Source: a virus. From it: a stretch of DNA of 24,368 nt. Both the position numbers and the translations under genes were made by a program. Location of the stretch: the IMG/VR virus record IMGVR_UViG_3300048588_000239, positions 1 to 24,368 of that record. One strand, given 5' to 3'. Position 1 is the stretch's first letter. Every line of letters begins with the position of its first letter. The notes beneath the pieces are model-generated. The model saw only the letters and a list, made by a program, of their open reading frames with translations, searched no databases and was not told where the DNA came from. This document shows positions 1,325 to 3,995 of the stretch, in pieces.

Positions 1325-1563
1325 AGACCCGCCGCGACCTCCGCGACCGCGTCGAGGAATACGAAGCCAACCTCAGATCCCTCGCCAGTCAGCTCGAGAA
1401 CGTCGTCAAACAGGTCGAAGTGGCACGCCCCGACGTCAACCCCGGCACGCAAGAGCTCCGCGACACCATCAGGCTCTACCGACTCATCGCGGACGACATC
1501 ACGAAGATCCTCGCCGGCCAGGAGCTGCAACCGTTCATCATCACCGGAGAGCTGCCGACATGA
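1321..1563 (+). CDS. Hypothetical coiled-coil phage protein (80 aa)
   Basis: This 80-residue protein starts at an ATG overlapping the previous stop (ATGA). Its first 40 residues (TRRDLRDRVEEYEANLRS and onward) are strongly helical and charged with heptad-like Leu/Val spacing, suggesting a short coiled coil. A second helix follows around residues 47-66. There are no cysteines, signal peptide or membrane segment. It ends with a TGA that overlaps the next ATG, so it is part of the same coupled operon. The function is not recognised. Confidence 0.7.
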   Translation: MKTRRDLRDRVEEYEANLRSLASQLENVVKQVEVARPDVNPGTQELRDTIRLYRLIADDITKILAGQELQPFIITGELPT

Positions 1564-1766
1564 CCACCACCCTCGCCTCCGTCATGTGCACGCTCTGCGG
1601 CGCAACCGGCACAGTCAACTCCGACATCACCAGCCCAGCCGGGCTCGCCACAGCAGCCGTGTGGGCGCTCCACATGGCCCGCAACCACCCGCAGATCACC
1701 GAGCGGGCAAGCCACTACATCGTGATGACCCCGGTCACGACGAAACCACAGGACAGGAGTGAGTGA
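1560..1766 (+). CDS. Small CxxC phage protein (68 aa)
   Basis: This 68-residue protein starts at an ATG overlapping the previous stop. Near the N-terminus is a CTLCG knuckle (residues 10-14), and around residues 40-43 there is HMARNH, so C-C-H-H zinc coordination (C2H2-like) is possible. The spacing between the pairs, about 27-30 residues, is longer than in a classical zinc finger. No other domain is seen. The stop overlaps the start of the next gene (TGATG). Function unknown; a small nucleic-acid-binding protein is a reasonable guess only. Confidence 0.65.
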   Translation: MTTTLASVMCTLCGATGTVNSDITSPAGLATAAVWALHMARNHPQITERASHYIVMTPVTTKPQDRSE

Positions 1767-2050
1767 TGTCGATTCTCCTCGCCGTGACCAAACGGGACGG
1801 TCACGAGACGAACGCCCAGTCCACCCTCCCTGCGCTCGTCACAGTGATCCTGACGCCGAGGTCGAAAGACGCCGCTCGCGGGATGAGCGTCCGCCACATC
1901 TTCGAGACGAACGCGTTTCGGAGGCTGGCGTCTGCTGACCGCGCGCCAGTCATCGAGGCCGCGGTGCCCGCAATTGCCACGACGGATTGCCCGAAGTGCC
2001 GCGAGAAGTGGCTCGCAGACCACGTGAACAGGAGCCAAGCAGGAGAATGA
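1766..2050 (+). CDS. Hypothetical phage protein with C-terminal CPKC (94 aa)
   Basis: The ATG at 1766 is preferred to the GTG one codon earlier because it overlaps the preceding stop and has an AGGAG-type site about 6-10 bases upstream (1755-1759). The N-terminal half is beta-like (SILLAVTKRDG, ALVTVILTP). The C-terminus carries one CPKC pair in TTDCPKCREKW, which could be half of a zinc site or a redox pair. There is no membrane segment. The stop overlaps the start of the next gene. Function not recognised. Confidence 0.65.
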   Translation: MSILLAVTKRDGHETNAQSTLPALVTVILTPRSKDAARGMSVRHIFETNAFRRLASADRAPVIEAAVPAIATTDCPKCREKWLADHVNRSQAGE

Positions 2051-2541
2051 GCGTCATGGAACAGGTCTACGCACAGCCGCATGAGGGAATCACTGGCACC
2101 GAGCGTTCGGGCGATCCGTTGCTCACCGAGGACGGCTCTCTCGTCGCCATCGAGCTGATGGGGATGCTCCACAAGGCGGTACTCGTCGGGAACCCCGCCC
2201 CGATCGTGGCGCAGATGTACGACCGCATCGCCAGTCCAGCAGCCGGGGATGCGGTCGTGGTGTTCGATGCTATCTATTCGAGGAACGACGATCACAAATA
2301 CAAGGGCGTCGGCTACCTGATCGCCCAACGCGCCGAGTGGGCGCAGACCGATGCGAAGTGGGCTGAGGCGCGCTCGGAGGATGGCAGCCTCACAGACGAC
2401 GACCGCTGGATCGAGCGCGATGCCTGGTACATCCAGTACGGCCCGGACGCCGTGGACGTGTGCCGGTGGTCGAATTGCCGAGTCCTCGCGATCCCGCGTA
2501 CCCATTCGTCCGGTTCGGGGTCTACAGAAGGGAACGAGTGA
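2047..2541 (+). CDS. Hypothetical acidic phage protein with SGSTEGNE tail (164 aa)
   Basis: Two starts are possible. The ATG at 2047 overlaps the previous stop (ATGA) and has AGGAG about 12 bases upstream. The ATG at 2056, three codons in, has another AGGAG 10 bases upstream; I keep 2047. The protein is acidic, rich in Trp and Asp, and has no membrane segment or cysteine motif. The C-terminus (GSGSTEGNE) is encoded by a 26-bp stretch that recurs exactly at the end of the next gene. The stop overlaps the next ATG (TGATG). Function not recognised. Confidence 0.65.
   Translation: MSVMEQVYAQPHEGITGTERSGDPLLTEDGSLVAIELMGMLHKAVLVGNPAPIVAQMYDRIASPAAGDAVVVFDAIYSRNDDHKYKGVGYLIAQRAEWAQTDAKWAEARSEDGSLTDDDRWIERDAWYIQYGPDAVDVCRWSNCRVLAIPRTHSSGSGSTEGNE
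2513..2538 (+). repeat. 26-bp direct repeat, copy 1 (3' end of gene plus RBS)
   Basis: This 26-base stretch is identical to 2914-2939. It encodes the C-terminal SGSTEGNE of the upstream gene and contains a purine-rich AGAAGGGA ribosome binding site just before the next start. The copies lie about 400 bp apart at equivalent places in consecutive genes, each ending a gene and launching the next. Confidence 0.9.
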
Positions 2542-2945
2542 TGCCCAGCGCGATCATCAAGCCGAAGCCAGACGAAGACTTCTACGCCCGGTACTCGACC
2601 ATCGTCGACAGTCCTTGCGAGTCGGGCACCCGAGAAGCCCTGCTCGCATATGGCATCGATCCCGAACGCCTCGACCGGGCCGACGAGACTGGCACATCCG
2701 CGCTGTGGGGGTACACCGAAGGCACGCTCTGGCTCGGTTGGCAGGACACGGATATCCAAGTGCGCGAGGGCGTCGTAGACCCGACTGCACCAGAAGACGC
2801 GTGGCGGGGCACGATCGCACGCGCAGACCTGCGCGCCTTCTGCGAGACGCTCGGCGAAGACGGCAACTTTCACCCGCCCGCGGGCATGGTCACGTGGTCG
2901 AAACCGGATTCGAGTTCGGGGTCTACAGAAGGGAACGAGACGTGA
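2541..2945 (+). CDS. Hypothetical acidic phage protein with SGSTEGNET tail (134 aa)
   Basis: The ATG at 2541 overlaps the previous stop (TGATG) and is served by the AGAAGGGA purine tract inside the repeat at 2513-2538. An upstream in-frame GTG at 2460 would add 27 residues that lie inside the previous gene. The protein is acidic with several Trp (WLGWQDTDIQV) and one or two isolated Cys. Its last residues (TWSKPDSSSGSTEGNET) match the tail of the previous protein (CRWSN...SGSTEGNE), so the two genes share a duplicated 3' end although their bodies do not look alike. Function not recognised. Confidence 0.65.
   Translation: MPSAIIKPKPDEDFYARYSTIVDSPCESGTREALLAYGIDPERLDRADETGTSALWGYTEGTLWLGWQDTDIQVREGVVDPTAPEDAWRGTIARADLRAFCETLGEDGNFHPPAGMVTWSKPDSSSGSTEGNET
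2914..2939 (+). repeat. 26-bp direct repeat, copy 2 (3' end of gene plus RBS)
   Basis: This is identical to 2513-2538. It encodes the C-terminal SGSTEGNE and supplies the purine-rich site upstream of the GTG start at 2942. A looser match (GTGGTCGAA) precedes both copies, so the duplicated module may be longer than the exact core. Confidence 0.9.
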
Positions 2946-3241
2946 AAAACTTCCTGCGCTGGCTGTCCTCGCTGATCCGCCGTCAGCCGTCCCCCGCCTC
3001 GCTAGCCGACTGGCGTGAGGACTACACCGGGCGGCACGTATGCACACTGTGGACGCCGTACGACGTCTGGGAGGAACGAGAGCGTTCCGGCCCCGGCCTG
3101 ACGTGCCGTCACTGGCACGCGCCGTGGCCCTACGCCACGTCCCCTGAGGACTATTGGTCCACGCACTGGCGGAACCGCCACGGCTACGTCCCCTGGGGGC
3201 GACCGCTGTGGCGCGACGGGACGAAGGAGGATGCGCGCTGA
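2942..3241 (+). CDS. Hypothetical Trp/Arg-rich phage protein (99 aa)
   Basis: The start is the GTG at 2942, overlapping the previous stop (GTGA) and preceded by the AGAAGGGA tract in the second repeat copy. The protein starts with a basic amphipathic stretch (KNFLRWLSSLIRR). It is then unusually rich in Trp, Tyr, His and Arg (for example HWHAPWPYATSPEDYWSTHW). Two Cys (VCTLW and LTCRHWH) with nearby His could coordinate a metal. No family is recognised. It is the last gene of the left-hand operon; the next 450 bases hold no clear gene. Confidence 0.6.
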   Translation: MKNFLRWLSSLIRRQPSPASLADWREDYTGRHVCTLWTPYDVWEERERSGPGLTCRHWHAPWPYATSPEDYWSTHWRNRHGYVPWGRPLWRDGTKEDAR

Positions 3242-3313
3242 GCGCACCCATTGACCCTGACTGTGCCCAGGGAAAGCACCCCGCGTGCATTGGTTGAGCG
3301 CAACCCTGAGAAT

Positions 3314-3400
3314 ATGGCGGATGACGACCGCATTCTGCCCCGCGCACCGGTCGGTAACGCGCTGTTCCCCGAATCGACCGGTTCGGAGTCCGAGGGTTGA
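3314..3400 (+). CDS. Possible 28-residue small ORF
   Basis: A short frame from the ATG at 3314 to the TGA at 3398-3400 encodes an acidic peptide, MADDDRILPRAPVG and onward, ending GSESEG. It is in the same frame as the preceding gene, after that gene's stop, and could start further up at a GTG at 3263 or TTG at 3290. Codon use is acceptable for this genome and the composition is protein-like, but there is no good ribosome binding site. It may be chance. It is listed because it is the only plausible coding stretch between 3242 and 3689. Confidence 0.2.
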   Translation: MADDDRILPRAPVGNALFPESTGSESEG

Positions 3401-3536
3401 AACTCCCGCGTTCCGCGCTCGCCGCAGAACACCCGCTCACGAGCCACACGCGCCCGACACGCGGACTCCCAATAGTCGCCACCTCATCGAAAGTGGTACA
3501 GTCAGCATCACGCGGGAGAAGTGTTCCTACCGCCAG

Positions 3537-3564
3537 ACGCCCCGAAGCAAACGCTCGGGGCGTT
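3537..3564 (+). terminator. Hairpin, probable terminator of the left operon
   Basis: ACGCCCCGA (3537-3545) is perfectly complementary to TCGGGGCGT (3555-3563), giving a 9-bp GC-rich stem with a 9-base loop. Only a weak T-rich tail (TTCGT) follows. It fits an intrinsic terminator of the L-shaped or short-tail kind seen in high-GC actinobacteria, but it could also be a leader-RNA structure. Confidence 0.5.
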
Positions 3565-3630
3565 CGTCATGTGCCGACGCGCCAAGCGCCTCGGCCGCGC
3601 CGCAGGTCCAGGGGGTCCTGCACAAGCGCA

Positions 3631-3666
3631 GCCCCCTCGGCCCGAACGGGTGCGGACCGAGGGGGC
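3631..3666 (+). terminator. Second hairpin, 24 bases upstream of the HNH gene
   Basis: GCCCCCTCGG (3631-3640) pairs perfectly with CCGAGGGGGC (3657-3666), a 10-bp stem. The 16-base loop contains its own CCC-GAAC-GGG mini-hairpin. No T tract follows, and the stem ends only 23 bases before the HNH start codon. It may be a terminator, an attenuator, or part of the packaging (cos) region. The assignment is open. Confidence 0.45.
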
Positions 3667-3689
3667 ACAACCCCCGCACCGGAGACACC

Positions 3690-3995
3690 ATGTCCACCAC
3701 ACACGCCGACCCCCGCCAAGCCCAAGCCCTTCGCGAACTCCGCGCTCGCGGCGAACACCAAACCTGCTGGTCCTGCGGCCGCGAACTCCTCGCCTCAGCC
3801 CGCAAACCCCACCCCGCGGCCATCACCGTCGGCCACTACGTCGACGTAGACCTTGGCCTCACCGACCCGTTCCACCCCGCGAACTACGGCGCCCAGTGCG
3901 GACCGTGCAACTACGCAGGCGGGGCACGACGCACCAACGCCAAGCGCCGCGGCATCACCGGCCGCGAGCTCACCGTCTCACCCGATTGGACCTGA
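3690..3995 (+). CDS. HNH endonuclease (101 aa)
   Basis: The start is the ATG at 3690 with a GGAG site five bases upstream; in-frame upstream extension would be Arg/Pro-rich shadow. Metal-binding and HNH residues are visible: CWSC (C26, C29), GHYVDVD (H49), DPFHPAN (H62, N65) and CGPCN (C70, C73, N74). The length is typical of the small HNH proteins encoded next to terminase genes in cos-type siphoviruses. In HK97-like phages these work with terminase to cut cos ends during packaging (established for HK97 gp74 and relatives). Position just upstream of TerS supports that role here. A homing or free-standing nuclease is the alternative. Confidence 0.88.
   Translation: MSTTHADPRQAQALRELRARGEHQTCWSCGRELLASARKPHPAAITVGHYVDVDLGLTDPFHPANYGAQCGPCNYAGGARRTNAKRRGITGRELTVSPDWT

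Follow-up and report, generated by a model that had tools for sequence, protein, structure and literature searches.

Phages acquire and shed many small genes and yet keep their overlapping operons translatable; how they do so is the question raised by a locus in IMGVR_UViG_3300048588_000239, a virus record of 24,368 bases that is a fragment of a genome and was analyzed over its whole length (hereafter the window). The phage is related to actinobacterial phages, and its structural genes, with a terminase and a portal protein identified by PHROGs, lie on the right side of the window. Three small genes, here designated A, B and C, overlap head to tail at 2047-3241, and the middle one stands between two copies of the same short sequence (Table 1).

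Table 1. Features of the window at the small-gene locus.
Feature	Positions	Strand	Description
Gene A	2047..2541	+	small phage protein, 164 aa; tail HSSGSGSTEGNE
Gene B	2541..2945	+	134 aa; ATG 2541; repeat on both flanks; tail SKPDSSSGSTEGNET
Gene C	2942..3241	+	99 aa; GTG start
Repeat copy 1	2513..2538	+	end of A and putative ribosome-binding site of B
Repeat copy 2	2914..2939	+	end of B and putative ribosome-binding site of C
AGAAGGGA, Shine-Dalgarno-like	2526..2533	+	for gene B
AGAAGGGA, Shine-Dalgarno-like	2927..2934	+	for gene C
GTGGTCGAA in A	2466..2474	+	within the CRW.NC motif of A; possible source of B's tail
GTGGTCGAA in B	2894..2902	+	at the end of the B module; possible fusion point
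B module conserved in DNA	2541..2897	+	shared with L015 and L016; ends exactly at TGG (W119)
Variable small-gene locus	1325..3432	+	between conserved flanks at 650-1324 and about 3433-3995

The two copies are identical at 26 of 26 nucleotides, as an earlier note on this DNA had reported. With up to three mismatches allowed, the window holds two matches against none in 100 dinucleotide shuffles, which rejects a chance origin, and the window has no other exact direct repeat of 26 nt beyond its first 200 bases. Gene A ends in HSSGSGSTEGNE and gene B in DSSSGSTEGNET, each directly before its stop codon, and each copy stops 2 nt before the next start (ATG 2541, GTG 2942), so that the spacing from AGAAGGGA to the start codon is equal at both junctions; the note's description of a gene end that also supplies the ribosome site of the following gene is thereby confirmed. 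Duplex energies, computed against an anti-Shine-Dalgarno sequence, indicate a strong site for gene B (-12.2 kcal/mol, against a background with mean -5.1 and 5th percentile -10.3) and a site near the edge for gene C (-10.0 kcal/mol, just short of the 5th percentile). We infer that translation of B and C starts from these putative ribosome sites.

Judged by protein and profile comparisons, A and B belong to separate homologous families with unrelated bodies. Gene A matches ten phage records, two of which are Phrappuccino and which include Frankenweenie and Kela. Relatives of gene B were found in Atuin, Big4, Zooman, L003, L015, L016 and L018, and also in Nesterenkonia and Microbacterium genomes, which correspond to L003 and L018. 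An alignment search for IMG/VR relatives led to four loci; gene A alone as the query was unsuccessful. None of the three genes was assigned a family by Pfam or PHROGs, and no phage relative of gene C was found. Between A and B, the 10-residue tail was the sole notable BLASTP match, the profile-profile comparison gave a probability of 0.3%, and DNA identity outside the repeat was 0.32 for positions 40-100 nt ahead of the starts and 0.25 for the first 60 nt downstream of them. The gene bodies are thus as dissimilar as the note had stated, the pair are not full-length duplicates, and BLASTP and the profile-profile comparison rule out paralogy of A and B. The repeated tail lies outside both families: matches to gene A are confined to residues 3-152 of 164 and leave the tail uncovered, and the protein matches of gene B in L003, L015, L016 and L018 end at residue 119-128 of 134.

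The DNA of gene B has a boundary of its own. With blastn, it matches L015 over 2537-2897 and L016 over 2527-2897, at 80% in both, and base 2897 is the last base of the TGG codon for W119, a residue that is invariant in the gene B family alignment. The 9-mer GTGGTCGAA, which had been noticed ahead of both repeat copies, is indeed there, at 2466 and 2894, and these are its only occurrences on the two strands of the window, but its distances to the two copies differ (47 vs 20 nt, start to start). The CRW.NC motif that holds its first occurrence is conserved across the gene A family. A common 9-mer arises by chance in such flanks in 5.6% of random in-frame coding pairs, and in 0.9% when limited to B's short tail; by itself it would point only weakly to a fusion at GTGG. 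When B's tail is aligned to the end of A, the score is 25.9, most of it owed to the 26-mer itself; among all other gene ends in the window, 5.1 is the highest score. No score was obtained when the extension was anchored at the 26-mer's left edge, and unanchored tests were therefore used. Taken together, the 9-mer and the module boundary suggest that the whole tail of B is a shortened copy of the end of A.

The three genes lie in a part of the genome that varies among relatives. The terminase is 65-77% identical in seven IMG/VR loci, the same seven being found again by an alignment-based terminase search (L068 is short and lies wholly within L067). L065 and L069 have the left-flank gene (650-1324) of the window, and segments of its right flank (3433-3995) recur in L063-L067 and L069. 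In the six loci that reach the region, just short, weak tblastx pieces fall within 2047-3241; these same-locus relatives are without A, B and C, their gene order is not conserved, and A joined directly to C was found in none of the relatives.

The reading that we favor, and consider probable, for the exact repeat, the unrelated bodies, the out-of-family tails, the module boundary, the variable locus and the parallel cases described below is that B was gained by recombination that duplicated the 3' end of A as the tail of B, with A, B and C remaining coupled. The repeat would then probably represent a duplicated gene tail with its ribosome site. In the recombination that would have brought gene B into an A|C junction with tight overlap, the two breakpoints would have been staggered: on the left, the start codon that follows A's tail; on the right, a few matching bases (GTGG) within the 3' end of A. 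The final ~25 codons of A would have been copied as a new tail for B, and this copy would have lost ~27 nt, either in the same event or afterwards. With the end of A duplicated, B's tail would bring C its ribosome-binding site, and B would be served by the original tail of A. Recombination between the two copies would delete exactly 401 nt and remove B cleanly; A would stay in frame (...GSTEGNET before the stop), and the ribosome site of C would be unaltered. From this arrangement we infer both the staggered exchange and a gain of B at this locus, as opposed to its loss in other lineages.

Similar arrangements were found in other genomes. The same-locus relative L063 carries a 30-nt repeat (28/30 identical) that ends two successive genes (...AEREDDRG before the stop) and includes GGGAGG together with the GTG start of the following gene; the two gene ends are weakly similar further up (37 residues), and a longer end may therefore have been copied. 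Before and after the gene B relative, GGTGAGGGG in L015 and GAGAGGGA[GA]AGCAATG in L018 each occur exactly twice in 39-40 kb, and no alike junction pair surrounds the gene B relative of L003 or Atuin. Junction scores around gene B and its relatives were 26 for the window, 10 for L015 and L018, 8 for Big4, 4 for Zooman and 3 for L003 and Atuin. In a permutation test of upstream against downstream junctions, the observed matching was reached by 18/5,040 permutations for the seven relatives with a following gene and by 18/720 without the window, in a set in which Big4 and Zooman are near-identical.

The mycobacteriophage Che8 has the same design as the window: its gene 93 (51825-51971) sits between two copies of a tail, ribosome site and start (GAGGGGGAAGACAAGTGAG). 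In its relatives Wachhund, Mahavrat and phi1_186019, a single junction copy joins the tail AEGEDK straight to the next gene (VSDVV...); other genes follow this tail in Jinglebell and Phatniss. The body of gene 93 occurs in 2 of 50,697 records, both of them Che8, which makes a gain simpler than many losses. In contrast to that of the window, the Che8 junction sequence is widespread in mycobacteriophages, and the two sequences are unrelated. Duplicated tails with the next ribosome site may represent a general route by which actinophages gain and lose small genes with coupled translation intact, although we advance this tentatively and at somewhat less than even confidence; the window, L063, L015, L018 and Che8 would then be independent scars of one recurrent process, in which tail, ribosome site and start codon act as a fixed unit and genes are dropped in or cut out.

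The earlier note had envisaged the repeat as a recombination joint for swapping small genes. In its shared form, a population-wide junction sequence would let phages exchange small genes, and B would have arrived with matching flanks. This is rather unlikely for the window, although mycobacteriophages show something of the kind: one 40-nt tail-plus-start junction of the Che8 type is present in 364 of their records, in genomes that differ widely in size. When 63 nt spanning the empty junction were used as the query, 337 records matched, 103 of them over at least 80%; among the 40 matches listed, 12 covered both sides (two as two pieces ~450 bp apart), 22 the tail side alone and 6 the gene side alone. 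All 22 tail-side matches end 2-10 nt past the GTG, so that homology tends to switch at the start codon, and 14 of them look like one event in similar phages. However, the tail shared by mycobacteriophages may simply belong to a widespread gene, and the junction pairs around gene B relatives are genome-specific. The exact 26-mer of the window was found in no other IMG/VR record and matched no other phage record; with up to three mismatches it was absent from 32 scanned records (12 + 20), its 20-nt core, the part searched there, was absent from GTDB genomes, and a search of IMG/VR with a degenerate tail pattern that ends in TGATG was likewise negative. A 26-mer shared between phages is rejected on these searches, and the two copies look locally made. 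A repeat unique to this genome, combined with one gene order in all relatives, had been put forward as speaking against a joint; the repeat is unique, but the order is not conserved. The proposed mechanism is right in kind and unproven for the window: the variable locus, the unrelated bodies, the clean in-frame removal expected from recombination and the single-copy junctions in relatives of Che8 agree with it, and its shared-joint version is unsupported for the 26-mer.

Other origins of the repeat are less probable than a shared joint. An SAS-like element, acting in translation or regulation and held identical by selection, is improbable, even though the repeat lies at a ribosome site and the L016 genome has GGAGTGAGTA at four starts. 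In the available text of PMC3203893 and PMC7302621, SAS are likewise conserved sequences at phage ribosome sites, described from mycobacteriophages of Cluster K and from EF phages of Microbacterium, but they measure 13 nt, occur in 10-19 copies and are common to related genomes, whereas the repeat of the window is 26 nt long, has just two copies in a 24-kb fragment with up to three mismatches allowed, lies in coding sequence, extends 13 nt upstream of the ribosome site and occurs in one genome. Diverged tandem duplication, with the ends alone retained, has a parallel in two of the ten junction pairs examined in the survey below, which are ordinary duplicated genes (Big4; Che8 49874/52189); for A and B it is very improbable, given the separate families, the lack of similarity between them and the tail found in neither family. 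Equally improbable is convergence through selection for a good ribosome site within an overlapping gene end: because of this constraint, tails of the EG[NS]E type are seen repeatedly among other phages, but the copies here share 26 identical nucleotides, including synonymous positions and the 13 nt upstream of the ribosome site, against 0 expected. We give least credence to an assembly artefact of the metagenome contig; the record is indeed a fragment whose first 170 bases are of low complexity, but finished phage genomes show the same design, and so does a prophage (L071) in a Microbacterium that has been cultured.

A published precedent for the arrangement in the window is known. According to the available text of PMC3029335, the last 18 residues of Island3 gene 68 match the end of the upstream gene 67, with ~50 bp of similar DNA; gene 68 has no homologues and is missing from Brujita; and Pope et al. 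2011, who name the case the first of its sort in mycobacteriophages, propose loss or gain through recombination between the repeats. As in Island3 67/68, successive genes in the window end nearly identically in DNA and have unrelated bodies. The two cases differ in that an empty site is known for Island3 (Brujita), whereas the same-locus relatives of the window are without A, B and C altogether, and in that the 26-nt repeat of the window is exact and includes the ribosome site of the next gene, a feature not mentioned for Island3 in that text. The window is thus a further case of a pattern already described. Short boundary sequences at gene borders, proposed to underlie phage mosaicism (cited in PMC3029335), resemble the repeat in being short and in standing at borders where modules exchange, but they are shared between phages, and no other record searched contained the repeat; most mosaic borders, according to the same text, show no shared sequence. 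The available part of the Tweety paper (PMC2884959) contains nothing on such repeats, and in the open-access literature no general account of gene gain through duplicated tails was found beyond Island3.

The point of interest is therefore how often the pattern recurs, not its type. Junctions were defined as coupled starts with a ribosome-site motif, and pairs were scored by the best ungapped match in the 32 nt before the two starts. For a set of 16 related sequences that includes the discovery cases, scores of at least 16 were obtained for 4/839 pairs closer than 600 nt, 0/1,513 at 0.6-1.5 kb, 1/3,943 at 1.5-4 kb and 0/27,508 beyond. For 15 phages chosen with no regard to the pattern, with TM4 and AnnaSerena as known SAS carriers, the corresponding counts were 3/982, 1/1,732, 1/4,514 and 1/21,558 (Fisher p 3e-4, nearest vs farthest pairs, two of the three near pairs coming from Che8); at scores of at least 12 they were 6/982 for the nearest and 24/21,558 for the farthest pairs (p 0.0016). 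Alike start junctions are thus enriched among close neighbors in the 15 sampled phages. The counts retain the pairs from Bxb1, which are probably stoperators. Among exact repeats of at least 16 nt in the first set, both copies lie at starts in 13/92 on the plus strand vs 1/92 on the minus strand, four of the 13 being second copies in the terminal repeats of Big4 and Atuin. If duplication of tail and ribosome site does recur, it would provide a readable scar of gene gain, and would predict genes that are removable in one step, a prediction testable in tractable phages such as Che8.

Several minor observations were made in the same sequences. Upstream of an HNH gene, for whose protein no match in phages was found, lies a stretch with no gene call (window ~3494-3572) that is kept in four relatives with the same locus (coordinates: L064 1110-1220, L069 8506-8616, L065 8755-8845). 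It contains two inverted repeats after TACAGT (in the relatives, GCGGTAGAAGTGTTTCTACCGC and GCCCCGAG...CTCGGGGC), gave no Rfam family at threshold, and could be a small RNA, a terminator or a packaging site. The window begins with a low-complexity GGC/GGA run (1-170) at the end of the contig, which may be an assembly edge or encode a glycine-rich stretch. The four gene starts with GGAGTGAGTA in the L016 genome (G002) lie within 2.4 kb (36103-38525), the motif being SAS-like and genome-specific, and two successive genes of that genome end in AADRS and AADRSE. On the minus strand of Porcelain (MF072690), two starts 229 nt apart (5514 and 5743) share TCACGGGGGAGATGAAATG, and their genes are unrelated. 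Further filled sites may exist in Harley (NC_051665, 50796-51245) and Sauce (NC_054722, 1969-2419), where the query for the Che8-type junction aligns as two separate segments ~450 bp apart.
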